From: Liolophura sinensis | Lineage: Eukaryota; Mollusca; Polyplacophora; Chitonida; Chitonidae | Direction: 5' to 3' | Assembly (NCBI RefSeq): GCF_032854445.1 | Contig: NC_088303.1 | Coordinates: 25,737,501 to 25,801,500 of the forward strand | DNA length: 64,000 nt | Shown here: positions 3,030 through 62,000 of the stretch, piece by piece | Numbering within the stretch: the stretch's first letter is position 1 | Layout of the letters: each line of letters opens with the position of its first letter | Notes under the pieces: generated by a model | The model's database searches: none | What the model was told of the DNA's origin: nothing | Seen by the model: the letters and a program-made list of their open reading frames with translations, nothing else | Made by a program: the position numbers and the translations under genes

Positions 3030-4367
3030 CTATATTTTGCATGTATCCTCATTGTACCAGCCTATAAAATTACGGTACGTTTGGCTAGGTAATGACATGT
3101 CGTGTAACTTACGACAATATTCACACATATACCCATTGTTTGCCTTTTCCCAACTTTGCCGCCATCTGTGATATTTTTCATACAGAGTTGGGTACTTGTC
3201 CAGAAGTAACAAATATTCCGCTAGTTCTTTGGGAGATCCAAATCCTGAGGTGTGGATATAGGATCCGGGAGGAAGGAGATCCTCATAGTTCCCGGGATCC
3301 GCTCCTCCCATAACAACGGGAACAGCTTGCCATTCAAGCAAAGGCTGTGCCACTTTCTCGGTCACGTAATCCCGGCAGTGGCTGTTCTCCATCGACAGGT
3401 AAAACTTGTGCCGGGCCAGTTTTTTCGTGCAATCCATTGACCCACGTGGACATCGTTGTTTGCCGCACCCTCCGTAGGTGTCTACGGGAATATAGTTGTT
3501 CAGTTCTCGAATGTATGAGAGTCTCTTGGTGTGCTTGGCCCAACAGTTACTGTTCATGTAAGCTATCAGGGAACCGGATTTGGAAGATAGGATCTCCTCT
3601 ACCAGTTGTTTATAAGCTATAGTAGTCATGTTTGTCTCTTTTCTCTGAACCCGGAAATAAGGCACGTTTATGTCGGAATCTCTCCGGTAAGTTGCCGTCC
3701 AGTTGAAGATCCCATTAAAATTCCGTATATTTAACCCTGTGTGATAGGGAGATTCCATCACGAAGTAGACCCAGCGTTGGTGAGGTAACCTCTTACCAGG
3801 CAAGTCTCGAAGACTGTGCATATTTCTAGCATGCATTATCACAGAGTCACTATTTAGTAGCTCCCGTCTATCTGTCGTACTCACACAAGTAATATTGTCT
3901 CCACATTGTATGTTTGCCGGAACCCAATTGTTTTTATCAAAAAAGCCGGTCCATACTAAAATCTTTTTGGCTGATCGTGAAACATTCGGCGAAAGTTTTC
4001 TCACCGGCACACCATATTGTATATATTGCTTTGAAGATCCATACTGGTGTCCGCGAATGGCCGCCAATCGTTCTCGGTAACTCTTCTGTATTTGGAGATA
4101 TCTTTGGTATACTTTCTCTGGAATGCGATCGGGCTGTTCTTTGAATGAATAGTCGGGTGTAGGAGAGACAGTTGTTGTTTTCATCGCAAATGACAAAAAC
4201 CTTACGTCAGTGGCAAACTTTCTGGGCAAAGTCCGCATCATACTGGAGATGTTGACCGATAAATCAGTGACTGTTAAGAAAACACAGGAGAGGACTATGA
4301 ATGAGCATAATGTCACAAATAACCATTGTTTCCAGTTCTTAGAGCTTCCCAGCAAGGCGCCTGGCAT
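3030..4367 (-). CDS. Alpha-(1,3)-fucosyltransferase, GT10 family, single exon
   Basis: Intact 445-codon frame. It is predicted to transfer L-fucose from GDP-fucose to GlcNAc-containing glycans in the Golgi lumen. The layout is type II: a short cytosolic N-terminus, one hydrophobic anchor at about residues 15-34, a stem to about 130, then the catalytic domain. The GT10 signatures are clear: FNWTATYRRDSDI at 221-233 (acceptor/donor motif) and KFYLSMENSHCRDYVTEK at 321-338 (the alpha-1,3-FucT signature), followed by the AVPVVMGG loop at 348-355. N-glycosylation sequons lie at about 39, 128, 158, 222 and 246. The ATG (4365-4367) directly precedes the anchor and the same start region is conserved in the decayed copy at 15.9 kb. 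Invertebrate GT10 genes are often intronless and multicopy. Which linkage or acceptor it prefers cannot be read from the sequence, so no numbered FUT symbol is given. Confidence 0.95.
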   Translation of the reverse strand: MPGALLGSSKNWKQWLFVTLCSFIVLSCVFLTVTDLSVNISSMMRTLPRKFATDVRFLSFAMKTTTVSPTPDYSFKEQPDRIPEKVYQRYLQIQKSYRERLAAIRGHQYGSSKQYIQYGVPVRKLSPNVSRSAKKILVWTGFFDKNNWVPANIQCGDNITCVSTTDRRELLNSDSVIMHARNMHSLRDLPGKRLPHQRWVYFVMESPYHTGLNIRNFNGIFNWTATYRRDSDINVPYFRVQRKETNMTTIAYKQLVEEILSSKSGSLIAYMNSNCWAKHTKRLSYIRELNNYIPVDTYGGCGKQRCPRGSMDCTKKLARHKFYLSMENSHCRDYVTEKVAQPLLEWQAVPVVMGGADPGNYEDLLPPGSYIHTSGFGSPKELAEYLLLLDKYPTLYEKYHRWRQSWEKANNGYMCEYCRKLHDMSLPSQTYRNFIGWYNEDTCKI

Positions 4368-4789
4368 TGTATAGAACTAGCTTCCGAAATGGTGCTTCAG
4401 TTAGACGAAATAGTTCAGTTTGATATATACAAACTGCTCTACCAGATTGGTCTTTGCTCCCTGGACAAGTACACGACAATGCAAAATGGAGGATCCAGTT
4501 TTAGCTGTGGATTAGCACGCATATCCTTCCTGTCCAAGCTAAGGTTGACCCTCGAAAACAGCTTCAGGCGTGTGGAACGGCAGGAAACTGGAAAATATAA
4601 CAGAAGCCCGCTGTTGTTATCACAGTATACTTACACTATACCTACAGTTGTTGCACTGATTATACATCTGAAGCCCGCAATTAACGAAAACCAGAGTGTC
4701 AGACTAATGTTGTGAGATATAAACGTATTACGTGTGCATTTGTATATCAAAAGTAACTTTGCCGTTGCTAGCATATTTTCATGGCTGTA

Positions 4790-14329: not shown

Positions 14330-15975
14330 AACTCATGCAAGAGTTGCCCAATAAAACATTTGCAGATTTCATAAATACCACGTATAAATGCAGCAAAAAA
14401 TAAAGATATATACATACTCGCCCTTCATTGTTAAATGAAACAAAGCGGAGAATACAAAGCGTTGCTTTGTAGTCTAGGCTCAGCGTTAGACTCAGCGTCT
14501 GGTAACCTCTTACCAGACAGGTCTGGAAAATTGTGCGTATTTCTAGCATGCATTATCAGAGAGTCACTATTTAGTAGCTCCCGTCTATCCGTCGTACTCA
14601 CACAAGTAATATTGTTTCCACATTGTATGTTTGCCGGAACCCAACTGGTTTTCTCAAAAAGCCGGTCCATACTAAAATCTTTTTGGCTGATCGTGAAACA
14701 TTCGGCGAAAGTTTTCTCACCGACACACTGGTATAAAGTATATTTATACATAGTCTTTTCCTTTAAATGGTGTCTGCGAATGGCCGCCAATCACTCCCGA
14801 TAACTTTCCTGTATTTGGAGATATCTTTGGTATACTTTCTCTGGAATGTTACCGGGTTGTTCTATGAATGAATAGTCGGAGTTTTTTCTCATATGCCGCA
14901 CGAAGAGCCGTGACCTGCTTTGCATTCAACTCCACAGAAACGCAACCGCTTCCCCTTACGTACGCGATTACTTCTTCGAACTCCTTTCATGCTGTCTGTC
15001 GTGGGCGCCGCCATGTTGAATAACGTTATATTCATTAGCTAATACTTGAGTGCATATAGTTCATTTTTATTTTGGATGTTTCTCATCAATTCAGATACAG
15101 GAAGGTGCTTGATTTTTATACCACTGGAAGAGATTTAGACTCAAGGAATCTGAAAATACTTAATAAATATCTGATACTCCTCTATCAACAATTATACCCA
15201 AATTTGGGGGGAAATCACTGCGCCCATATATACACGAGCTTTGTCTCTGTACCGTAGGATCACGTAGAAAGGCGCGTGTTCTCGAATGGGACGTAGACGA
15301 GACAGCTGTAGTAGTTTTATTGCAAATGACAAAAATCTAATCTCAGGGGCTAACATTGCGGAATGTCCACATTATAGTGGTGACCAATAAATCAGTGTGC
15401 GTTAAAAAACACAAAAGAGGACTATGAATGAGCACAGCGACACAAATAACCTTCGCTTCCAGTTCTAAAGAACCGTCCAGACTATCCAACATCACTCAAC
15501 TTTTGTAAACTTAATAAGTGTCAAGTTGATCCGTGTTGAGTAGTCTAGACGGCTTCTTCAACTTGGTTCTGCAACACTGAACATCATCCAACATTGTTGA
15601 ATCGGAAATGTGCATGTGTATTTGTTGTCAACAAGTTCAGTGAAAGTAACCAATCAGCGGTCGTGTGGAAATAACGTAACCGTCATAAGGTACGTGACCT
15701 GAGCAAAATGGCGGCATCACAGGCGAAAGAGAGAAACTGGTCTGGCGATTAGACAGTTTCGTTGATACAAAGACAGGGGCAAAAGAAAATCATTGTGTCT
15801 CATGCATTGGAGAGAAGATGGAATTTACCTCCAATTTACCTCAACAGCATTCATTTTGCTGTTGAGTCAACAGAAGTTGAATGATGTTGGATAGTCTGGA
15901 CAGGGCTTTAGGGTTTCCGAGCAAGGCGTCTGGCATTGTACAGATCTAGTTTCCGAAATGGCGCTTCAATCGACG
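14330..15975 (-). pseudogene. Decayed fucosyltransferase duplicate, catalytic half deleted, two insertions
   Basis: Blocks of this region match the intact gene at 2840-4395 in the same order and strand: 3' flank (about 14335-14455), middle of the protein (14490-14880, including the FEKTSWVPANIQCG and CVSTTDRRELLNSDS stretch), N-terminal region (about 15290-15475) and start-codon region (15913-15970, 'aaggcgtctggcattgta'). The segment corresponding to about 2965-3785, which encodes the last ~250 residues with both GT10 signatures, is absent, so no active enzyme can be made. The blocks are separated by an unidentified 0.4-kb insertion (about 14885-15290) and by a small inverted-repeat element (about 15472-15912). 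Confidence 0.88.
15472..15915. mobile_element. MITE-like element inside the fucosyltransferase pseudogene
   Basis: The ends are inverted repeats of at least 30 nt: 'gtccagactatccaacatca' and further bases on the left, and the reverse complement 'tgatgttggatagtctggac' on the right. The match probably extends outward through 'ctaaag'/'ctttag'. The interior of about 400 nt has no coding capacity. Because it splits sequence that is continuous in the intact gene (4330-4350), its boundaries and its status as an insertion are directly visible. Superfamily not determined. Confidence 0.8.
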
Positions 15976-28400: not shown

Positions 28401-31400
28401 AAAAACACGTTCTTAGATTTTTGCATTTAAAGCCATTGGTTTTATATTACAGTATGTTTACAATGTAAACAAAGCGTTAAAACCAGAAACTTGCCTCTCT
28501 TAGACTTCAAAATAGTGTTAGCCCTGGTTCCTATCAGTTTATATTTTAGAAAGACCCTGCTGCATATGTTGGGCCCTCAACAGCTTCCAATTGGTCAGTC
28601 TCTTTCGCCTTATCAAGCTTACGACGTTTCCACAGTAGAGTCGTGGCTCAACACCTGCATAACTAGCTTTAGATAGTCGCTTTCGTTTTTTCCTTTGCAT
28701 TTGTTTTGCAGTGTGTTCCCCAGTCACTAGTTTTAATTTGTTCAGAACTGACTCAAATCCTTCTGGACCACTGTTAAAGTGAAGGACGGCCAATGCTACG
28801 GCTGTTTCGACCTTCATCTTCGAAGAACTGTCCACTTTAGGACATCTTTGCCAAACAGTACCATTGAAACACTCATTTGTGTTCTGAGTTTTCATTCTGG
28901 AACATCTAGCTCACAGATGTTCATCTGTCAGTCTTTTGTACACTGGTAAAATAATTTCACCCACATCAACAGAAAAAGCTGGGGTATGTTTTCGCACTGC
29001 CTGTCCTGTTGCTACTGCACGGTTATAGTGGCACCAAGACTTGGGACCTTTTGGGCAAAATTTGTGATGGGGTTTGCTGTCAGTTGATAGCATGTGGAAA
29101 TACCCTGCAAAAACATTGTTTTTCATAGTCTGCACATCTGGAGCACCACTTTTCAAGTTACTGGCATATGTGCTGCTACATTTCTTCATGGCAAACTTTG
29201 TCAATTTTCTGTTTAAACTTTCCCCTCTCGCCTTACTTCGTTGTTTCAATTTGTCAAGAGCAGTATACATGCGCTTGGCAACGTGATTTACACATTCTTC
29301 TTTCTGAATGTCGTTGTCACCATACAACTTAAGATTACGGACATGATCATATGCTTTGGAATCTCCGTCTGTAAGGACCTGGTTGTACATGAGTCCTTTG
29401 TCTGTAGATCGCTTAAAAATAATATCAGTACATTCAACTTCCATAGCATTTGCTGATCCATGGAAATTTTTCTGACAGGAGTGTGTTTGTTTCCACTTCA
29501 CTAAATCTACACCTTTCTTAGTTTTTCCAACAGTGGCACAGCCATGACAGTAATTAGAACATACGTGAGTGTCCAGCACGACACCTGAATCCACATCTAT
29601 GACACAGCCTAACCCATAATGGGAGCTATGTCCACGTTTCTGCCACGAGCCATCATAGCTGACTACACGTGGAACCAGTCCATTTACTGCCTCATCTGAA
29701 TCACGTTTTAGTGCCTCGGCAGCTGCATGCATGTTTTCCTTTGCTGCTTCAATTGAAACATCATGAACTAACCTGTCAATCTTTTGCCAGGTCTTGATGT
29801 GCATAGGCTGAGGCAAATTCATGTCAGCAAAAAATTCACAAATCTTGTTATATCCTATGCCAGTATTTTTGCACGCTGCTACAAAACGTTTGTTCACAAA
29901 ATTAGACATCTCATTGCCAGATTCCATCCCCTTTTCAGATGTGTAGCCATGAAAAATAACATCTTCACAGTCTCTGCAAAATATTTCAAACTTAAAATTC
30001 AAACCCTGACCACCGCCAAATTTGCAGTTTGTTGAGTCATTTATTTGAAATAATTTTATATTTGCGGATCCACAAACCTTGCAACACACACTGTTAACAA
30101 TCTGTGCTAAGAAGTCAGTATTTACCAGTCTGTAGCCATTCAATTTGTTTATTTCAACTTTTTTGGCAACTTCAGTCGGCGAATTTTCTCTGTCCGAGTT
30201 GGGCCCACTTTCCAAGTTCCCATGAAACATATCAAATTTTGACTGACTTGCCGTTTTGGCTAACGATATTCCATTTTCTGAGATAGAATTGTAATCGCTT
30301 TCGGTTCTATTCACCAAGTCCGAGTTTAACCCGGAAGCAACTTTGGCGATCGACAAGGCGTGTTTTTTCGGCCTTCCGCCAGCTCGCCCGCGCATTTTGC
30401 GCCCCCGCTTTCGAGATCCGAACATTTCCTTTGTTTTGACCTTTTGTCGAACCATTTTGCCGCTTGACACACTTAAAAAACGAAAATGAACACCAAATGA
30501 CTAGGCTTTTTCCCGATCAACTCAAATTTGGTCTGCCATATTGGATGTAGACACTGCGCATGTGCGGAAGTAAACGGAGATGAATGAGACGAATATAGAC
30601 CAATCGGAAGCCGGTATACCCTTCATATGTCGCTGTTCTTACCTTATATGGAAATTTTCGTTGAAATTCCAGGAATTCTACACCGGACACTGAACGAAAA
30701 GTACCGGGAATTTCCTTATATAGATTATATGGCGAGACTCAGCATTGAGCGGCCTTTTGAACGATATATAACATGTCTTATTACAACAACAACACTAGGG
30801 ACACGCGAGGCAAATTTGAAGACAAAAACCAAGTGATTGTTACCGTCAAACCGTCAAAATCTTTGACCTTATCAGAAGCCACTACATCAAAACATCTTTA
30901 TTTCTTCAAAAAACAGTCGTGTAGGGCATTAAAAATTTAAATGGCGTGTTTTTTGATAAATATGCTGTCGTTTGAAACACAAATTGGAAAATCGTTAGAT
31001 GACGTGAAAATTGACATTCAGAGGGGCCGTGTCCCACCTTAAATGTAACCAGTTATTGAGTTTTTTATTCAACCAAAGGACCGAATACTGGCTCGTCCAG
31101 GTGACTTCTATGAACCCGTGTTGTATGAGTGGAAATTTGAACCTTTCAGGGAAACCAATAGCAGTGACTCATTCAAAAGGAAAGGGGACTAAACTCCAGC
31201 CTGGAGCTAATCGCCAGCTAGAAAAGGCCTTATGGGAACAAGGTAGATCCAAGAGAGCTAGAGGAAAGGCCAACAGCAAGGTTTCACTGCCAGAGCAGAG
31301 CTGTGAGGATGAGGGAACAGCACCAGCTGACTCAGCTGCTGCAAATGCAGATGTCCGGGCCATATTGACAAGCTGTGCTGCATCCGAATCGTCTGAGGAG

Positions 31401-34400
31401 TTTTACTCCATGGCTGAGATTGCATCCTGCAGTTATGAAGCCAGACAGGTATATGTAATTGTCTTGCTAGGTGTCATTATATGTGGGATACCTCCTGATA
31501 TGGATCTTCAGACACTCGAGAACGGCCACATCTTTACACTGTGTTGTCATAGTATTAGTGTATTGAACATTGTTTTCTTTCATTATAAAGTTACCGATTT
31601 TCCTTTGTTCAAGAAAATAGAAGTACTGAGTGTTTTTTTTTTTTTCGTGATCATTTGGTTGGGCTTCTGTGGCCAAGTGGTTTGCATGGTAGGGCCTCTC
31701 GCCAATACGGTCACTGTGAGTTCTAGCCCACCTCATCCTGGCTTGCTCTCCAGTCGTACATGGTAGATCTGCCAGATACAAAATTTTCCACAAGCGTTAA
31801 TCAAAGTGTGATGTTTAAGGGCTGTGATCTCAGAAAGTGTTGAATATGTTCCTTTTCAGAGGCTATATTCTGAAAGCCTGGGTAGGAAAACCCCAGTTTG
31901 TGAATTTCCAGATATCTAGTCTTCTTCAGTAGGAAATTACTGTCATCTAAGAATGCTTCCATGACAAATAAGTGTTCCGAGACTGTTAAAAATGAACAGT
32001 ACATGGCATTTCTAAAAGGGCATATCTCAAAAACCACTTAGAATTTAGAGTTGTAACTTTACAAACCTTCCTCATATATGCTAAGGTGTGTTTAAGAATT
32101 TTTACAAAATAATCCAAGGGGGTCACTACAAAAAAAAAATTTGGGCTGATTTGACACAGAATGACCCTTCTTTTCTTAGGTTAGAGTTCAGAACAGCATG
32201 TTGGTGGGAGGAGCAGCCTGACAGCTGTGTTTGTGGTTGTTTTCTGTTCTTAGGTTGGAATTAAGAATGACATGTTGATGGGAGGAGCACACAATCTGAG
32301 AGCTGTGTTTGTTGCTGTTTTCTGCTCTCAGGTGGGAGTTAAGAATGGCATGTTGGTGAAAGGAGTACCGAGCCTGACGGCTGTGTTTGTTGCTGTTTTC
32401 TGTTCTTTGGTTAGAGTTAAGAATGGCATGTTCGAGGTAGGAGCACATCATTACAGATGTGTTTGTTACTGTTTTCTGTTATTAGGTTAGAGTTAAGAAT
32501 GGCATGTTTGTGCGAGGAGCATACAGCCTGACAGATGTGTTTGTTGCTGTTTTCTGTTCTTAGGTTAGAGTTAAGAATGGCATGTTGGTGGGAGGAGCAT
32601 ACAGCCTGACAGCTGTATTTGTTGCTGTTTTCTGTTCTTAGGTTATAGTTAAGAATAGCATGTTTGTGCGAGGAGCATACAGCCTGACAGATGTGTTTGT
32701 TGCTGTTTTCTGTTCTTAGGTTATAGTTAAGGATGGCATGTTGGTGGGAGGAGCATACAGCCTGACAGCTGTATTTGTTGCTGTTTTCTGTTCTCAGACT
32801 GACATTTAGAATGACAGTGTTAGTGGGACAGGATCACAGTCAGCTGTATTTGTTGATGTTTTTTTGTTCTCAGGCTGGCGTTAAGAACGGCATGTTCATG
32901 GGAGGAGCAAAGAAGCTTTGTCCTGATTTAGTCACCATACCTTACGATTTTGACAAATACAATGAAGTCTCCAGACAGCTGTATGACATTGTGGCAAGGT
33001 ATGGTGTGAATACTTCCCTACCAATAATTGCTGACACAGCGATAAATGTTTTATTGGCTGCCTTCAATTCTAATGATATGGTTAATTTCAAAAAGCTATT
33101 TCTGGCTCAAGTCAAAATTTAAAGTAAAGATAAAGCTGAATTAATTGATAAAGTAGTATTCCAGAAATGTTGTAAAAATATTTTTAAAATTCTACACCGC
33201 TTCTCAACAAAAGAAATAGCAAACAATCGTGAGTGTTGTAGCCACTCATTTGGTGTTGCCATGTTATAGCTAACACCCGATACCCAACCAAAGAGTATTA
33301 GCACAGTTCTGTGTTCAAAGGCCTGATGTATTGTTTAGTTTGGAGTCCTGCACGTCTTGGTCCTGCATGGCTGTAGACATTTGGCCCAGCTGACTACTGA
33401 TTTCAAGGAATTTAACGAACATAGCAGGACCTTCTGATTAATGACAGACTTTTTCATTCAGATTTTGGAAAGATATTTTCATAATAAATCTGACTTTGCT
33501 AAGGACAAATATGGTGAAGTCAGAATATTTTTCTTAAAGCGATTGTCTTGCCTGCTCGCCCTGACAAGTTACTGCAGTATCCTGTCCAACATGCACGCAC
33601 TGTGACATGAGCAGCTGTTCTCAGATCGCTGCTCATAAATGTGTGGTCCAAAATGCATCAGTTTAACACTTAAACTAACCACAAAATCCAATTTATTGCA
33701 TTGATATTGGTTTATCCACTATAAGAAACCACGCTGACAGTCAAAGGCTAATAGGTTCTCTGAGGTGACAGCCAGTTATCATGTGACGCTTTCAGTGCTA
33801 GTGACTGGCCAAGTTCAAAAGATCTTCTACAACATTGTTACTCGGAGTGAATTGTCTGTGAGTGCCACATTCCAAGAGCTGAGCTCCATCTTCTCGGCTT
33901 TCAAAACTTTAAAGAATTTTTTACATATTTTTCTGTGATAACGGTGTCCTATATCATTTTTTGTATGAATATACAGTGGCGGACTTTATGTTCAATTTGA
34001 AACCTTATGACAATGCTTAGTTTGTGATACTGGCAGTTGCAATTTTGACACATTGGTCATAAGATTCCTTTAAGACATCCATTTGGTGTCAAAATTTTAA
34101 AGATAAAAATCACCCTTCCGACTCCTATTTCAAAGTTTGACTTAAATCAGAAAATGGCTTTTTGGAATCAGTCCATGCAATATTAATTTTTTTTTTCCAC
34201 TTGCTGCAAATGCAGCAAACAATAGAAATGTATTGAATATCTTAAATTGACAGATTAACTGCTTTAATGATGTGTTATCTTTTGCCTGTACTATGTTATC
34301 CAGCTACACCCATGATATTGAAGCTGTAAGTTGTGACGAGATGCTGGTGGACTGTACGGACCTTCTTGCGGATGTTGGAGTGTCTCCATTAGACTTTGCC

Positions 34401-40400: not shown

Positions 40401-43400
40401 TTTTACATACATGTAAAGCATAGGGGCTCGAGGGGGAGGTTTCATTGCTGATGCTGATGAACCGTCGATTACAATAGTCACAAAACTGGTCTTTATGTAT
40501 TGAGCTGAAGTTTTGCATTCATGATGTCTTCTACAGGTGAGCTCTTTGGTAGGCTTGCTAAGTTTTGTTATACTGAAAGGGTCAAGGGTTATAGAATTTG
40601 GTGCTAACTTGATGTTGTGTTTATAGCAGTGGTCTGCTTGTAGGTTGACCCAGAGGTAATGAAGGAGTTACCAGCTGACATCAGGGTGCAGATTGAAGCA
40701 GCCATGAAACAGAGGCGGGGCACCAAGCAGATGCCACCTGTCAAGCAAACACCACAATCAGTGGTAACAGCTGAAGACACACCCGGCTGCTCCCATTGGC
40801 CGAGTCAGGAGCCGCTCGTTGTTACAACTGTACCTGAGGAATCCATTAATGTAGATGTCAATTCGACATCAGAAACATTGACGCCAAAAGTTTACAACAA
40901 AACCATAGCCCTTCCCTCTCCATCTCAGGTAGATCTATAATCTTTCCACTATTTAGTACCAAAAGACTAAAAGTTTCTACCTCCATTTTTCAACTTTTAT
41001 TTGGAAATGCTTCATGCAACCATCTGGTAGTCCTTGGGTAACAATAAGGTTTTGATGTGAAGATTATGCTAAAATGTTTTGATTCTTACAAAAGTGGAAT
41101 AGAAGAACTAATTTATTTAAACTATATTTGTGGTCCTGTATTGCCTATTTCAGCTTGAGCCCAAGTTGAGCTATGAATTGTTCATTTCTGTGATATTTGG
41201 TTTTAGTTTTTAATATGTCTGTTGATTGGGCAAATACCCTAATTCTTCTAATTTTTTGATTATTTTTTTGATTTTTTTTCTTCTAATGTCTGGAATGCTC
41301 TTTTTAGCTAATATCCACATAACTGTAGCAGAGATATTACCTTGTGTTTTTTTTCATACGGCCAGTCCATATAACAAACAACATATTCATGTCTTTACTT
41401 TTTAAACAAAAAACATGGAGAGAAATGTAATTCTTTGCTTTCAGCACTACTGCTAACAGTCATAAAATGACCAATGATATGTGTTTCAAAATAGCACTTA
41501 AAACAAAGAGGGCTGTCTTTCTGGAATGCCTGTCTTACTTGACTCGAAGAATAAAATCTGTGTTCTTATGCAGATCGACCCAGAAGTAATGAAAGAGTTG
41601 CCAGTTGACATCAGGGAGCAGATTGAAACTGCTATTAAGCAGAGACGAGACACCAAGGGGAGAGCTTCTGTCAATCAACCTCAGCAACAAATTAGTGAAC
41701 ATCAGAGAAGTCATGGAAGCTCTGATTGGTCAGGCCAAAATCCATCCAGTGAGATAATTGTAACAAATAATTTGGTTGGATCAGATGGTGGTAACCATGG
41801 AGACAGAAACACCAGTCATCTAAGAGCAAGGGCGTGCAATAAAATAGAGCCACTGCCATCCTTTTCACAGGTAGGAATGTTGTCAACTGGTCTCAATTTT
41901 CCTGCTTAGACGTTTAAACTTGTGAGTTAAATCAAGTACTGTAATTGATGAATCTGAAAAAAATGTACTTACCTGGCGCCATCACAATTACATCAGTTGT
42001 GTGGCAGCTGGCCAGCCCTTCACAAATAAGGTGGTTTTAAATACTCAAATCCAGTTGGTTTCCCTTTAATTATTAGTCTGGGAAATTTGTTCAATAACAA
42101 TCTAACATAGCACAGTAGTTTTGTCCAGGGCTTACCTGCTACTTGTGCCCTAAATTTTACTGCCATGATATTTGAGTGAGACCTTGAGATAAAAATAATT
42201 AATTAGATGTATTTACTACTCTCAACAGCCGGCTGCTTCTGTTCACTCTACCAGGTTAAGTGACCAGTAGGGTGTAAATGAAAAAGTTATATGGCTTTAT
42301 ATATCATTCAAATAAAGTTTGAATAAAGTTTCTTGATGTTAGTTGGCATGCCCACAGATAACCTTTTGTTTACACTAAATATGGTGGTTTAACCCAAAAG
42401 TCTTCAAAAAAGCATTTAAAAAATTACACCAACAATGAAATTGGCACACCACAGAAATATGTCCAGAAATTCTCGTTAACTCTACATGTTTTCTTACCAT
42501 CTTGATTAAATTGTGGCCTAGTGGCTAATGTGCTAGTGCAGTGCAATGTCCCAGGAGCCTCTCACCAATGTGGTCACTGTGAGCTCAAACTGGTCTGCCA
42601 GCATCCCATGGATGGCATCCCATGCTAGCAACTGTTGTGAAATACTTTTGAGTATGGTGTAAGTCACCTTTCAAAAAAATAAATAAATGGCTTGAAATTT
42701 ATGATTGACACACTTATCAACCAAAAGAGAACATAAGTAATTGTTAACACCAGTAATTGTTTAAAAGGTATGGTAATAGCTCATAGCATGATGTGTTTTT
42801 GAAATTTCAGCTTGATATGGACTGCCTAAACGCCTTGCCACCAGATCTTCGTAAGGAGATTCAACAAGCCTACGCTGTACAGGAGAAACAAAACACGGCA
42901 CGAAACAGTCCATCAAAGATGTCCAGCTGGGCAAGTGTCATGTCCGCTGCAAAGTCTCCTTCAAAGAGTCCAAATAAGAAGGGAAAATCACCCAACAGAA
43001 ATAAAAGAAAAAGTCCTCAGTTCAAAGTTCCACAGGGCAAACCTGGTCGCAGAAAGAAACAGAGTTCCAAGAAATTGGATTTCACGAGAAGCGTCGAAGA
43101 GAAGATACCTCTGTATTCAGATAGTGAAGAGGTGAGTTGAAGCAGAGTGTCACAGCTTTGTTATCTGTAAGAGACAGCTCAGCAAGTTGATTTATGTTGT
43201 AAAGCTCTACTAAAAAACGCAAAGTTTTTAATCCAAATGTTTTTAAAAAAGTTCATGACCCTCATTCAACATTGTTGAAGCGAGTAGATCATTTTTGTTG
43301 GTCAAGTTTATGGAACAGAAAGTCAAAGGTCTTTGATGTACAAACTTGAGTGATCACCAACAAATGGGAATAGACGTGTAATCTTGTGTTCAGATGATAG

Positions 43401-45599: not shown

Positions 45600-46140
45600 T
45601 TATGCCTCTAGTGGGAATTTTCCTCTGAGGAACTTTACTCTGCCGTAGGCTTTCCACTACATTGGATGTAAAGGTAGTAGGAATTTACATCACATGTGCT
45701 GGGAAATTCCATGTTAGGAACTTTACTTTGTAGTAGGCTTTACACTACATTGGATGTAAAGGTAGCAGGAATTTATGTCACATGTAGTGGGAAATTCCCT
45801 TAGGAACTTTACTGTGTAGTAGGCTTCACAGGAGCACTGGGTGTAAAGGTAGCAGGAATTTATATCACATGTAGTGGGAAATTCCCTTAGGAACTTTACT
45901 TTGTAGTAGGCTTTACGCTGCATTTAATGTAAAGGTAGCAGGAATTTATATCACATGTGGTGGGAATTTCCCTTAGGAACTTTACTGTGTAGTAGGCTTT
46001 ACAGTACCACTGGGTGTAAAGGTAGCAGGAATTTATATCACATGTAGTGGGAAATTCCCTGTTAGGAACTTTACTTTATAGTAGGCTTTACAGTACCACT
46101 GGGTGTAAAGGTAGCAGGAATTTATATCGTATGTACTGTA
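45600..46140 (+). repeat. Satellite A, about 90-bp units
   Basis: About six units carrying 'aggaactttact', 'gtagtaggctttaca' and 'ggtgtaaaggtagcaggaat'. One more unit lies beyond a retroposon insertion, at about 46455-46560. Confidence 0.88.
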
Positions 46141-46639: not shown

Positions 46640-47665
46640 AACTTACACAGAATAGTACTTCATTACAGCGTCAGCTGTGCATGTAGTGGGGATTCCGTTT
46701 TACAAGGAATAGTGCTTTATTTCAGCGTTAGCTCTGCATGAAGTAGGCCAGGGATTTCCTTTTACATGGGATAGTGCTTTACTTTTACATGGGATAGTGC
46801 TTTACTCCAGCTGTAGCTCTGCATGTAGTGGGCCAGTGATTTCCTTTTACATTAGATGGTGGTTTACTCCAACTGTAGCTCTGCATGTAGTGAGCCAGGG
46901 ATTTCCTTTTACATTGGATAGTGCTTTACGCCAGCTGTAGCTCTGCATGTAGTGCGCCAGGGATTTCCTTTTACATTGGATAGTGCTTTACGCCAGCTGT
47001 AGCTCTGCATGTAGTGCGCCAGGGATTTCCTTTTACATTGGATAGTGCTTTACGCCAGCTGTAGCTCTGCATGTAGTGGGCCAGGGATTTCCTTTTACAT
47101 TGGATAGTGCTTTACGCCAGCTGTAGCTCTGCATGTAGTGCGCCAGGGATTTCCTTTTACATAGGATAGTGCTTTACGCCAACTGTAGCTCTGCATGTAG
47201 TGCGCCAGGGATTTCCTTTTACATGGGATAGTGCTTTACGCCAGCTGTAGCTCTGCATGTAGTGCGCCAGGGATTTCCTTTTACATTGGATAGTGCTTTA
47301 CGCCAGCTGTAGCTCTGCATGTAGTGTGCCAGGGATTTCCTTTTACATAGGATAGTGCTTTACGCCAACTGTAGCTCTGCATGTAGTGGGCCAGTGATTT
47401 CCTTTTACATGGGATAGTGCTTTACGCCAGCTGTAGCTCTGCATGTAGTGCGCCAGGGATTTCCTTTTACATTGGATAGTGCTTTACGCCAACTGTAGCT
47501 CTGCATGTAGTAATTCAGGGATTTCCTTTTACATAGGATAGTGCTTTACGCCAACTGTAGCTCTGCATGTAGTGAGCCAGGGATTTTCTTTTACATGGCA
47601 TAGTGCTTTACTCCAGCTGTAGCTCTGCATGTAGTGGGCCAGGGATTTCCTTTTACATGGCATCA
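46640..47665 (+). repeat. Satellite B, 62-bp units, about 15 copies
   Basis: Unit: ggatagtgctttacgccagc, then 'tgtagctctgcatgtagtg', then 'ccagggatttccttttacat'. The middle units (46.9-47.5 kb) differ at only a few positions; the flanking ones decay outward, the usual pattern of unequal exchange. Confidence 0.92.
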
Positions 47666-49929: not shown

Positions 49930-50800
49930 CACATAGTGGACATCTGCATCACAACATCACTGTGGACATCTGAATCATATGCTGCTTTGGACATCTGTAT
50001 CACACCAATGTGGACATTTATTTCACATGATGTGTATCACGCATGGTAGTGGACATCTTCATCACATGCTGTTGTGGACATCCCTATCACATGATGTAGT
50101 GGATATCTAAACACCATTGTGGACATTGGTTTCACAAGCTGTTGTGGACACCTGTATCACATGTGGTTGTGAATATCTGTATCACATCATGCTGTTGTGG
50201 ACATCTGTATCACACACTGCACCACATGCTTTTATAGACATTTGTGTCAAATACTACTGTGGAAATCTGTATCACATACGACTGTGGACATCTGTATTGC
50301 ACACCAATGTGGACATTCGTTTCACATGTTGTTGTGAACATTTGTATCATATGCTGTTGTGAACATCTGTATCACATCATGCTGTTGTGGACATCTGTAT
50401 CACATTGTTGCAGGCCTCTGGCACAGTTGTGGATATCTGCATCACATGGTTGTGGACATCTGCATCACATATGGTTGTGGACATCTGCATCACATATGGT
50501 TGTGGATATCTCATCACATATGGTTGTGGACATCTGTATCACACCTGTGCACGTTTTACCGCATGCTGTTGTGGATATCTATATCACATGCTGTTGCAGA
50601 TGTCTGTATCACACACAACTGGTCATCTGCATCTGTTATTGTGGACATCTGTATCACACACAGTTGTGGACATCTGTATCACACACAGTTGTGGACATCT
50701 GTATCGCACACAATTGTGGACATGTATCACACAATCGTGGACATTTTACCACATTCTGTTGCAGCCATCTGTATCACATGTGGTTGTGGACACCTGAGTT
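49930..50800 (+). repeat. Minisatellite C, about 25-30-bp units
   Basis: Some 30 diverged units on 'gttgtggacatctgtatcac'. Long overlapping frames (up to 191 codons) run through it in all three plus frames because the unit has few stops; their composition (His, Cys, Trp, Ser repeats) simply reflects the unit, so I do not call genes. Confidence 0.88.
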
Positions 50801-56027: not shown

Positions 56028-59000
56028 ATGTTAGGTGATCTTGTCAGTGGACGAGAGAGATCCTCTGTTGTTTGCATCGAAGGTAAAAACACGCGATAAA
56101 CGCATGGTGTTGTTGTTGCTCGTTCCCCCCTGTTAAATAAATTTTAACCAGAGGAAAGTATCTGATTGTCTCCCTTCCAGAGACCAATTACACGTTCTTG
56201 AATATATCGTTAAACATCATTTAAATAAATAAATGAATAAATAAATCATTTTAGGGATCCGGACTTGTAGAGTTTAGCCTTAGTCTCACCGAAGTTTAAA
56301 CACTTCCTGGAATTATGCAAGTGTGATTTTTTCGTTATCTTCAAAAATAGTCTCATGCTATCTCTGATCGTGGTGACATGTCGAGAATAAGTGGTCAACG
56401 ACACTCGTGTGACCCTTTGCGCATTGTAACGCTCATTGAATATGGTGTGTATATCTGTGTGTGACATGAGAAGTTTATTGTCAGTACCGGTAACGTGTCA
56501 AAGTTTGGTGTTTATCAGGCTCCTAGCTAGCGTTACTTGGAGTGGCGCAGTGCTACACCCCAATTCCCAGTGCCACACTGCCCCCAAACAATTCTCCTGA
56601 TTACCATGCCCCTTTTTATTACTGCAGGAACTCCAGTTCCCTCCCCCCTGTATAAATTTACCACCACCGTAAAAGTGAAAAAAAAAAATCATGAATATAG
56701 CCGTTAACCAACCATGAAATAAATTAAAGCTGTTAATTAAAAAGATTTTCAGCGTTCCAATATGAACTTTTCTTCCAGTAGTGCTAATCTCATTTTTGGT
56801 TGAATCATTTTTGTCTCGATGCCTAGGGATATCGAATGGTATTACACCAATGTCTTACTGGAGTATTTGATTAGGAGATATGGTGACTTCTAGTTTTGAT
56901 AAAAATCATTTAAAAACATGCTGAAAAAGTTACTAATGTCACTGCATCCGTGCGATTTGAACTCTTTCTGAAAGGTCATGGAGAAAACACCCGCACTTTT
57001 GATCTCGACACACATGCGGGTGACAGCATAACGGAGGAATGCAAGGGGAAACAGCACGACACTTGAACACAAAGATGATGATTCAGTATTTGTTTCACAT
57101 CTGAAAAGTATCCCCCCTTTCCCCTTAATCCACAGATTGATTTATCACACACACTAACACAGCATAAAACACCAGCCAAATAAATCATTCAATATTAAAC
57201 ATATTGGAAGAAACGCTGAATGCCAGTATGCATTGACATCCCACAATACTCCCACGAAACATATCAACTTGTCATTAAAATTCAGGTAATAAATTTACAT
57301 GTTAACAGAACTGAAATGGTTTGAATGGAAAGAAAGTTATCCTAAATTATAAAGCATATTTTATAACCTTTAATATCCCCTGTATTTTATGCATAGTGTC
57401 AATGATCAGAAATTTCCAGCTTACTGGAAACCCGGTTGCAACTTACTGCTTAGTGCCTCCTAATTCGAGCTAAACATCCCCACTCAACCTACCCCCCCCC
57501 CCCCCCCCCCCCACCCTCCTTCTCCACAATCCCTTATTAAGTGAAATTTTTGTCAAAGCTATCACCACTGACGTCACCACTACAGGCTACTTAATACCCA
57601 GACTGACTGATGGGGCCTTAAAAAACTGTTTGAAGCCATTTTTTCAGAACCAGAATAAAGCTAAGAAGCTATCTTTTTTAAGTACTTTTATATGTTTAGA
57701 CACACCCTAAACTGCATATTAAGAAATAAAAAGAAATGTGTCCTTTAACTTTGTACTGCTCAGATTTATTGATGTTTAAATGTATCAAATTTGTGTTTTC
57801 ATTCAGCATTTATCTCTTTCAGATACTGTTGAACTGTCTGGTTTACAGTTATTGTGCTCTTTTGTTAAAAGTTTATTAAAGAGGTAATTACTGTCATAAA
57901 CTAATTAATGACATAAAGTAATATTTGCTTAATAACCCCATGTATAGTGATCATAAATGTCGTGTGTTATTGGCATTCATAGAGGGCTTTATCAGGGGAA
58001 ATAACTATAATATGATCCCTCTTTAATTCCTAGAGACCGAATTTCTATTTATTTGATCAGGGTCTAAGATTTCTTGTTATATTTTTTTAAATAAAAACTT
58101 TTTTTAATTATGTAAATATATTTTCAATGACAACATACTTTATTTACAGTGATTTCATGATTTGTAAATAATCCCTAGGAAAGCTTAATTTGAAGATTGA
58201 CCTTTTGTATTTTATGTTTTACCTTGATTGAATTCTCTTTCAGACTAGACAAGGTTCATATTTTGTGTTTTGAGCCTCCTTCACAACTCCTCAACCCATG
58301 TGAAAGGTCAGCAAATGTCTTTTTTTTGTGATTTGATATGAAATTTGTGTGTTAGGTACGTTATAGATCTAATTGCAGCTTTAAGTTAGCATGTTTTTTC
58401 AGATATCTCTCTATAAACAGTGGGTTATTCTGGGCATACCAGTTTCCTCCACCACTCACAAACCTGTTATAAAGATATCACACAAAAACTCCCCGCATCC
58501 TTATTCATAGATTAATCTGTATAAGTGTGGCATTAAGCAGTGATCATGATCAACTCTTGCAGATTCATTTCCCAAATATGTTCAATGAATTTACTTCATC
58601 TAAGCATATTTTACACCAGAGAAATGTGGCTGTATAAATGGTTTACCCAGAAACATTCAGATTGTTGTAGACACACACAAGGAAACATTGTTGCATACAC
58701 AAGAAGATGCCTGCAAGTGAACTTGGTTGTATACACATGGAAATGCTGTTGTATAAGCAAGGAAATCTTTTGTAGGAAATATGTTCAAGGAAAACTTTGG
58801 AATGGATCTGCTAAGAAACATTGCTATGTATGCAAAGAATGGATGTGCTAAGAAACATTGCTGTGTGTGCAAGGAATGGATGTGCTACAAAACATTGCTG
58901 TGTATGCAAGGAAATGGATGTGCTACGAAACATTGTTGTGTATTCAAGGAATGGATGTGGTACAAAACATTGCTGTGTATGCAAGGAATGGATGTGCTAC

Positions 59001-62000
59001 GAAACATTGCTGTGTATGCATGGAATGGATGTGCTACGAAACATTGCTGTGTATGCAAGGAGTGGATGTGCTAGAAAACATTGCTGTGTATGCAAGGAGT
59101 GGATGTGCTAGAAAACATTGCTGTGTATGCAAGGAATGGATGTGCTACAAAACATTGCTGTGTATGCAAGGAGTGGATGTGCTACAAAACATTGCTGTGT
59201 ATGCAAGGAGTGGATGCGCTACGAAACATTGCTGTGTATGCAAGGAATGGATGTGCTACAAAACATTGCTGTGTATGCAAGGAGTGGATGTGCTACAAAA
59301 CATTACTGTGTATGCAAGGAATGGATGTGCTACAAAACATTACTGTATATGCAATGGAATGGATGTGCTACGAAACATTGCTGTGTATGCAAAGAATGGA
59401 TGTGCTAGAAAACATTGCTGTGTATGCAAGGAATGGATGTGCTACAAAACATTGCTGTGTATGCAAGGAATGGATGTGCTATGAAACATTGCTGTGTATG
59501 CAAAGAATGGATGTGCTACGAAACATTGCTGTGTATGCAAGGAGTGGATGTGCTAGAAAACATTGCTGTGTATGCAAGGAATGGATGTGCTACAAAACAT
59601 TACTGTGTATGCAAGGGAATGGATGTGCTACAAAACATTGCTGTGTATGCAAGAAATGGATGTGCTATGAAACATTGCTGTGTATGCAAGGAATGTATGT
59701 GCTACAAAACATTACTGTGTATGCAAGGAGTGGATGTGCTACAAAACATTGCTGTGTATGCAAGGAATGGATGTGCTAGAAAACATTGCTATGTATGCAA
59801 TGGAATGGATGTGCTAGAAAACATTGCTGTGTATGCAATGAAATGGATGTGCTACGAAACATTGCTGTGTATGCAAAGAATGGATGTGCTACGAAATGTC
59901 GTTGTGTGTGTAAGGAAACCTTGTATATGCAAAAAAACATTTTAAATGCAGAAAATGTATGTGTGAGGACACATTTTTGTATGTGGAAGGAACATATCCA
60001 CAAGGAAACGTGTATGTGAGGAAACATTGCTTTTCTCACATACACAATGCTTTCCTCTGGGCTAAGGTTTTTCTTGTCATAAAACAGCAATCATGAAAAC
60101 TTATGAAGAAATTCATATGAATTTTGCAAAGAGAAATGTGTGTGAAAACTGTCAATCAGATGGTTTACTACTCTGTGATAACTCTCAATGAATTGTCCTA
60201 CAAGTGTACCTGCAAACCCTGTGTTTTTCAAACGCTGAATGTTTGTTTGATGTTATCTCAATTATTCCAGGCTGCTCATACACGATGGATTTTCAGATAC
60301 ATTTGGATGGCTGGGAACGCCATCATGTCTGAATGTGAACTCTGACATCGAGAAATATTTGTCAGACCAAAGTCAAAGGTCTGGTCAAGCCTCAGCCAAT
60401 CAGAGATCAGCTGTTGTCATAGATACACTCACCCCACTGATCACCCAACATGGTGCTGTGAAAAGCTGTCAGATTGTACAAAACCTTTGTAAAGCTAAAC
60501 TTAAGGGTAAGTGCTGAGTGGGATTTTGTGATTTATGAGACTTGTTTAAAGCATTAGAGCAGCATATTGACCAAAATTAACATTCTGTTATCCTGCAACT
60601 TTTTCACATTTTTGCAAAGTGATTATTGAAACATATTCTGAAGGCATTCTTCTTTGCAGTCTGTCAGAATTATACTTTTCGTAAAGCCCTGAAACTTCCC
60701 AATCCAACCAAGGGTAGTTTTGTCTCCAAAATTAAATTACGGATGTGCATAAATTGCATGGAAAGTTGCTCTTTCGCAAAAACATTGAGAAATTAGGCTA
60801 TGTGTCTTAAAGCCTGCTGTTTCATAACCAGACATTTAATAAGCACATGTAAGACAGGAAGCATAGTGATTTGTGGCCAGTGTAGGATTTCAATTGACTT
60901 GTATGTGTGGAAAAATTAATTTCATTTCATAGCCAGCTTTGTTTTTTCAAGGTGGAAATCATTTTTCTTACTCCTGATTTGTAATTGAGTTGAACATTTT
61001 GGAATATGTGTTACAGATGTACTGAAATCTGCAAATCTTCTCAAATGATGTTGTCATAATGACTAATGACGACGGATGTTGTTGTTTTTGAAGGAGGAAA
61101 TATTGCCCAGGTTGTGTTCCTTCTGCATGGCGATCTCCATAGTGACCACAGCCTCACTTTGATTCATCATGTGACCTCCTCAGTTTTGAAGATCTGCCCA
61201 TCCAAGTCACCAAACCATGCAGCAATATGTAATATACTTCACAAGAAACCATCTGGAAAAGTCATTAAACTTGTAAGTGTAAAGGTCAGAAGAAATTAAA
61301 AAATGAAAATTCAGGTGCAGTTGTAATTATAAGTGTACTGATGTTCAGAAGAAATTGACTGGAAAAGTTAAATTACAAATTACAAAAAATGCCACCATAC
61401 CATTGTGATCACAAGAGGTTATCTTCAAAAAGGTTTTAGGGGGCCTCCGTGGCTCAGTCGGTTAAAGCGCTAGCGCAGCGTAATGACCCAGGAGTCTCTC
61501 ACCAATGCGGTCGCTGTGAGTTCAAGTCCAGCTCATGCTGGCTTCCTCTCCGGCCGTACGTGAGAAGGTCTGCCAGCAACCTGCGGATGGTCGTGGGTTT
61601 CCCCCGGGCTCTGCCCGGTTTCCACCCACCATAATGCTGGCCGCCGTCGTATAAGTGAAATATTCTTGAGTACGGCGTAAAACACCAATCAAAAAAAAAA
61701 AAAAAATCAAAAAGGTTTTATGAACTTGAAGTTGCAACATGTTGTCTTCACGCAAGAAAGCCTGTGCGTATGGAACGGATGTGCATAATGGTATCATTGT
61801 TTAGACAGCAAACCAGTGAATTTCTGCAAAACAGTAATAGTCTTTTTTGTACATGTATACTGGAGTGCTAAATATCATTACATTGTTTTTTGTTTGTGCC
61901 AGATTATTAGTTTTCAGTTTTTGAGACCGATGCAATGTCGGTAAATAATTAATTTTCAGGGAAAAAGTACAATTGTAAAAACGTACATGTTTGTATTTGA

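Follow-up and report, generated by a model that had tools for sequence, protein, structure and literature searches.

The REV1-like gene of the chiton Liolophura sinensis carries a tandem array directly in front of one of its exons, which repeats the splice acceptor and the first codons of this exon. The array is located in a 64,000-nt stretch of contig NC_088303.1 (positions 25,737,501 to 25,801,500, forward strand), analysed as a whole and termed the window below; REV1 positions are window coordinates. With a probability of roughly 0.85, an ordinary minisatellite has captured the edge of the exon, and its copies are largely ignored by exon-proximal splicing. Accidents of this kind are known; the host and the gene are new. 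Most likely, the array is the harmless product of a genome rich in repeats, not the brake on REV1 expression considered in an initial annotation.

Nine units of mostly 78 bp form the array at 32154-32909, which ends at the real exon start, 32874. Tandem Repeats Finder (TRF) reported 32168-32909 with a period of 78, 9.6 copies, 82% match and a score of 888, far beyond chance. This score and the unit alignment confirmed the nine tandem units, mostly 78 nt, that the initial annotation had described ahead of the real exon. A full unit comprises 42 nt of intron end and 36 nt of exon start. Its intron part contains CCTGAC, followed by a pyrimidine tract and TTAG or TCAG. The exon part corresponds to codons 1-12 of the exon at 32874 and ceases to be homologous after GGAGCA, where the real exon continues with AAGAAG. 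This anatomy bears out the earlier proposal that a tandem duplication captured the 5′ end of the exon and created decoy acceptors. Most spacings were correctly given as 26 codons: six of nine are 78 bp, the remaining three 74, 76 and 76 bp. An acceptor in every unit had been claimed as well, which holds for eight of the nine; unit 4 has lost its AG and reads TTTG. Likewise, the VKNGM start ascribed to each unit is exact in four of eight scored units (u3-u6), differs in u1, u2, u7 and u8, and is replaced in u9 by TDI and a stop. The features, with the first base after each copied acceptor, are as follows.

31150-31448, plus strand: upstream REV1 exon, ending in SYEARQ; donor CAG/GTATAT after 31448, phase 0.
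32154-32215, plus strand: unit 1, intron part short by about 18 nt; its acceptor TTAG leads into an exon-like part that begins at 32180 and meets a stop at 32219.
32216-32289, plus strand: unit 2, decoy acceptor, exon-like part from 32254.
32290-32367, plus strand: unit 3, decoy acceptor TCAG/GTGGGA, exon-like part from 32332.
32368-32445, plus strand: unit 4, acceptor dead (TTTG at 32406-32409, followed by 32410), donor-like GAG/GTAGGA after 32436.
32446-32521, plus strand: unit 5, decoy acceptor at 32486; the preceding 60 nt lack a branch-point consensus.
32522-32599, plus strand: unit 6, decoy acceptor at 32564.
32600-32677, plus strand: unit 7, decoy acceptor at 32642.
32678-32755, plus strand: unit 8, decoy acceptor at 32720.
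32756-32833, plus strand: unit 9, decoy acceptor TCAG, degraded exon-like part from 32798, in-frame TAG at 32807-32809.
32834-32873, plus strand: 3′ end of the real intron, with a T7 tract and TCAG; it has lost CTGAC and carries TTGAT 18 nt ahead of the junction.
32874-32998, plus strand: real REV1 exon, AGVKNGMFMGGAKK...DIVA, donor AAG/GTATGG; its first 36 nt are copied by the units.
32332-32436, plus strand: hypothetical in-frame cassette exon of 105 nt without a stop, from the unit 3 acceptor to the unit 4 donor-like site.

Unit 1 seems, by eye, to be a full unit minus about 18 nt (ACACAGAATGAC versus TACAGCCTGAC), so the left edge of the array lies near 32154. The inner units are most alike, with 97% identity between u6 and u8 and 92% for u6/u7 and u7/u8. 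The edge units have diverged: u9 shares 68-78% and u10, the last copy, 70-78% with u2-u8. Unit 1 is 41-55% identical to all others; its deletion and the flanking bases included in the alignment lower this value. A 156-bp step is faint; 32488-32643 matches the next 156 bp at 95.5%, versus 93.6% for a 78-bp shift, only a modest gain. No second copy of the array was found in the single 609-Mb assembly, which gave one match only with a tool that carries a caveat on repeats. At the far end of the real exon, 32971-32984 matches the intron part of the unit at 13 of 14 bases. Its score, taken with the 42-nt intron part, was reached in 6 of 2000 shuffles, the match having been noticed post hoc. It may be due to chance or be the trace of an older event.

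The host gene is REV1-like, judged by its similarity to known proteins. The best PDB match of the exon pair is 3gqc, DNA repair protein REV1 (E 1.7e-19), with other polymerases far behind. Pfam detected the Y-family domains IMS, thumb and IMS_C, together with a UBM, in the scanned part of the joined exons, and the naming of the gene in the initial annotation was thereby upheld. Protein anchors and splice signals served to place thirteen exons, which join to 1146 codons without a stop. In this model, the start of the first exon is given by the stop-to-stop frame only, and the end of exon i and the donor of exon m are uncertain. A candidate C-terminal peptide gave no match in the domain scan. 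The genome holds nine IMS matches, two of which belong to the REV1-like gene. The intron carrying the array has 1425 nt and is in phase 0; the reading frame of the joined exons requires only the last copy. Two similar UBM-like exons occur in tandem (40644-40928 and 41574-41870), and a third one starts at 42811. For UBM, Pfam gave a weak match on the second of these exons alone, none on the other two singly, and a match on the joined stretch. Human REV1 has two UBMs. A Mutator-like transposase open reading frame (ORF) is located at 28911-30500 inside a REV1 intron, on the opposite (minus) strand (PF20700, 6.8e-54).

Formation of the array would have started with the tandem duplication of roughly 78 bp, in which the final 42 nt of the REV1 intron adjoin the opening 36 nt of the exon. 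This segment would have brought along a branch-point-like CTGAC, the pyrimidine tract and the AG, and then have grown minisatellite-fashion into a structure of the type termed 'mirage' in lancelets. Its last copy would have been kept as the real exon because the protein-coding sequence was required, while the remaining copies became intronic and drifted. The upstream exon is most likely joined to the exon-proximal site, because the full exon, its own donor and internal signals are found there. Occasional use of a decoy would lead to a premature stop and probably to transcript decay, hence at little cost. Compared with their own consensus, the exon-like parts of u1-u8 (u9 was left out) carry 2 silent and 21 replacing changes, whereas all possible single changes split 27:81. 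These counts argue against coding constraint on the exon-like parts, and a coding role of the decoy copies was rejected on them.

Reading on in the gene frame, all eight decoys that keep the AG run into a stop: u1 at 32219, u2 and u3 at 32488, u5 at 32561, u6 at 32639, u7 at 32717, and u8 and u9 at 32807. Given the phase 0 of the intron and the unit length of 26 codons, a TTAG acceptor retained in the message becomes an in-frame TAG. The TAG at 32807-32809, to which the initial annotation had assigned decoy transcripts, terminates those from u8 and u9, while the others stop earlier. These eight stops would suit a brake: some transcripts, in a fixed or regulated proportion, would be spliced to a decoy and degraded after reaching the stop, which would lower REV1. 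The strength of the sites speaks for it, too. Acceptors were scored with a generic matrix and with a second matrix trained on the other REV1 acceptors. Using the generic matrix, seven decoys score 9.7 to 12.2, u5 6.9 and the dead u4 -0.3, compared with a median of about 6.5 for the 12 real REV1 acceptors. Sites of at least 9.7 are rare in the other REV1 introns, with one in 12.3 kb (0.08 per kb). Such a brake is nonetheless unlikely in view of the arrays at other genes described below.

Units 3 and 4 together could provide a nascent cassette exon, which would insert 35 residues between SYEARQ and AGVKNGM. The unit 3 acceptor scores 11.9 and the unit 4 donor 7.8, and the stretch is open in the correct frame. 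Unit 4 departs from the consensus by three clustered changes creating the donor, in addition to the loss of its own AG. Yet donors of this strength occur at 0.73 per kb in the other REV1 introns, about one per two such arrays by chance, and the insertion would fall in the polymerase core. The cassette is very improbable. Recursive splicing over mini-introns, with the AG/GT junctions at several decoys rebuilding a donor for a second step to the real exon, is a still fainter prospect. Rebuilt donors score 6.9 (u1, u5 and u6) and 9.4 (u3), within the range of real REV1 donors, and the real exon begins with GC and cannot be re-spliced. However, a GT start is also present in 4 of 12 real REV1 exons and hence ordinary, the intron is short, the donors rebuilt at u7 and u8 are weak (2.2), and none arises at u9.

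Similar arrays are present elsewhere in the genome. In 264 kb, comprising 20 blindly placed 10-kb pieces and the window, TRF returned 46 array rows with a period of at least 20 and at least three copies, three of them nested in others. Splice boundaries were examined in loci that surround matches to chaperonin (PF00118) or chitinase (PF00704). Among 117 matches, 80 were listed, comprising all 50 for chaperonin and 30 of 67 for chitinase; 50 fell in the loci used. Twenty-eight loci were fetched, and 27 were used in addition to L002; L045, which falls inside L002, remained unused. A boundary was flagged if its surrounding ±30 nt recurred in the adjoining 1 kb beyond dinucleotide shuffles. The 50 exon matches gave 100 candidate boundaries, of which 85 could be tested. 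An array was flagged as spanning nine of them, and eight were confirmed on inspection, three on the acceptor side (L041, L002 and L048) and five on the donor side (L028, L036, L042, L047 and L048). For two flags in L048, the boundary was shifted to the exon-proximal site. The flag at donor 3263 of L002 was rejected, as the array sits beyond the real donor near 3200. A tenth flag, in L040, was not counted, the boundary not being spanned. The confirmed arrays are located as follows, in locus coordinates.

L041, 832-1149: acceptor-side array before a chitinase exon, unit of about 86 bp.
L048, 1350-1529: acceptor-side array before a chitinase exon, unit of about 53 bp.
L002, 6100-6968: acceptor-side array before a chitinase exon, units of 42-43 bp.
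L028 and L036, minus strand: donor-side arrays.
L042 from 2132, L047 from 2526 and L048 from about 2086: donor-side arrays.

L002 holds two adjacent arrays with seven acceptor-like sites each in front of the chitinase exon start. L028 and L036 represent two exons of one chaperonin gene, which we take to encode the gamma subunit. For REV1, 2 of 23 boundaries were flagged, the array at 32874 and the exon at 41574. The latter resembles its neighbour at 40644 and looks like an exon duplication. For comparison, 168 positions were taken from the same loci outside the listed matches, possibly with unlisted exons among them; 34 lie within local duplications, about twice the boundary rate (8 of 85). 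As boundaries are hit less than other positions, nothing draws the arrays to splice sites, and a minisatellite-rich genome suffices to explain those found there. An array with five acceptor-like sites was also seen in L020; no adjoining exon was noticed, and no exon search was made. Other minisatellites reported by TRF in the window are located at 45609-46135 (unit 87 bp), 46778-47658 (62 bp), 50049-50796 (25 bp) and 58799-59917 (37 bp).

Chaperonin and chitinase exons of the same genome thus carry comparable arrays, on the donor side as well as on the acceptor side, which points to a generic by-product and argues against a regulatory role of the REV1 array. Stop-making is not a rule either, since one chaperonin array holds six in-frame open decoys. 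Over nine arrays, REV1 included, 59 of 68 decoys lead to a premature stop, seven are in frame and open (six in L028), and two shift the frame without a stop. The lancelet reports describe undisturbed splicing at mirages, though use as cryptic sites was deemed possible there.

Several observations weigh against a minisatellite whose copies are passed over by exon-proximal splicing. With the generic matrix, the real acceptor (12.6) is the top of the 12 REV1 acceptors (the other 11 score 1.4 to 11.1) and exceeds all eight decoys, as if selected over competitors. The gene-trained matrix ranks it second of 12 (10.1), below unit 3 (11.2). Local RNA folding, as predicted, does not leave the real site exposed, and exon length does not exclude the decoy at 32798, which would give an exon of only 201 nt. 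In other arrays, decoys score at least as high as the real site in 6 of 11 cases (L002, array C), 10 of 10 (L028, array E) and 8 of 18 (L042, array G); the ten GT-keeping decoy donors of L028 score identically to the real one. Of the 80 copies in the nine arrays, 68 still have their AG or GT, versus 57.9 expected from identity squared, which leans towards maintenance; in eight of nine arrays, the boundary dinucleotide is retained more often than the average for the other dinucleotide positions.

The rule that the real site is always strongest was discarded. It holds for REV1 with the generic matrix only, and fails in arrays B, C, E, F, G, H and I, each of which has one or more decoys that tie with or beat the real site. 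As decoys match or beat the real site in arrays C, E and G, strength is not a general discriminator. We infer that splice choice may be decided by proximity to the exon body and by signals inside the exon. Structural hiding of the decoys was rejected; the pyrimidine tract of the real site is unpaired at 0.27, compared with 0.16-0.54 in the units. A branch-point check of the REV1 array found CTGAC at -33 in six units, the dead u4 included, and TTGAT at -18 as the only candidate of the real site. Selection on decoy dinucleotides was rejected as well. Their retention is above the mean in eight of nine arrays, yet mid-rank, with a mean percentile of 0.56 (wide) or 0.57 (central) relative to the other positions in their alignments, and Wilcoxon p values of 0.43 and 0.31. 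Neither purging nor maintenance was significant in this rank test over nine arrays. A regulatory role gains no support from this, and the array would be neutral.

Further observations concern other genes. A fucosyltransferase ORF (PF00852) is located at 3030-4376 of the window on the minus strand, and an ORF at 14431-14790, on the same strand, repeats part of it, judged by eye. Eight haemocyanin beta-sandwich units occur in a row on a single contig of the genome, an arrangement that marks a mollusc. Contig C99 carries seven copies of COX1, spaced by about 15.5 kb, and C632 a single one; the repeats on C99 may represent a tandem mitochondrial assembly or an insert.

Taken alone, the REV1 array is a curiosity. 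Together with the eight other arrays, it suggests that boundary mirages, described in lancelets, are common in a minisatellite-rich mollusc genome, too. Such arrays are natural experiments on splice-site choice: given the tie of ten decoys with the real donor in L028, the right choice, if made, must depend on position or on the broader context. The arrays also make an intermediate of intron gain via tandem duplication visible. It is improbable that boundary minisatellites form a standing splice-ready supply from which REV1 already yields alternative transcripts, by the in-frame cassette 32332-32436 or by decoy-driven decay. If true, the cassette would break the polymerase core and leave a scaffold-only REV1, and decoy-driven decay would tune the REV1 level, with unit number varying among individuals.

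No report of boundary arrays in molluscs was found among the open-licence papers listed by searches with simple terms; the portion available of a paper on Conus introns mentions microsatellites in introns, but not boundary arrays (PMC3862624). Internal tandem repeats in human genes alter gene structure, and some activate cryptic splice sites. They share minisatellite-sized units within genes with the REV1 array but, unlike it, are paralogs in segmental duplications and form no array of copied acceptors (PMC2812944). In the potato RdRp gene, an intron was gained via tandem duplication, forming a new spliced intron. As in REV1, a duplication crossing the boundary carried along branch site, pyrimidine tract and 3′ splice site; the potato copy became a spliced intron, whereas the REV1 copies are probably passed over (PMC4974935).

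The closest likeness is to the lancelet mirages, minisatellite-like copies of intron/exon boundaries in Adh3, globin, TnC and PGBD5 (PMC3087553; PMC3902484). Adh3 data and reverse transcription PCR (RT-PCR) on globin suggest regular splicing, and the globin mirage has haplotypes of 6 and 3 units (PMC3087553). For the PGBD5 boundary repeats, where Adh and TnC are also mentioned, accurate splicing is reportedly unaffected (PMC3902484). Despite undisturbed splicing, mirages are said to be possible cryptic splice sites (PMC3087553; PMC3902484). The unit of the REV1 array is 78 bp, versus 150-160 bp in lancelet BflGb6, and its host a mollusc instead of a cephalochordate; gene and phylum also differ from those of PGBD5 (PMC3902484). 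As in BflGb6, the 3′ end of an intron and the 5′ part of an exon are repeated in tandem. Splice signals are present in many, not all, units (eight of nine AG in REV1), inner units are more similar than edge units, and 5′ and 3′ boundaries are both hit within one genome, as in lancelets. The REV1 units span the exon-intron boundary and include both exon and intron sequence, which is what defines a mirage.
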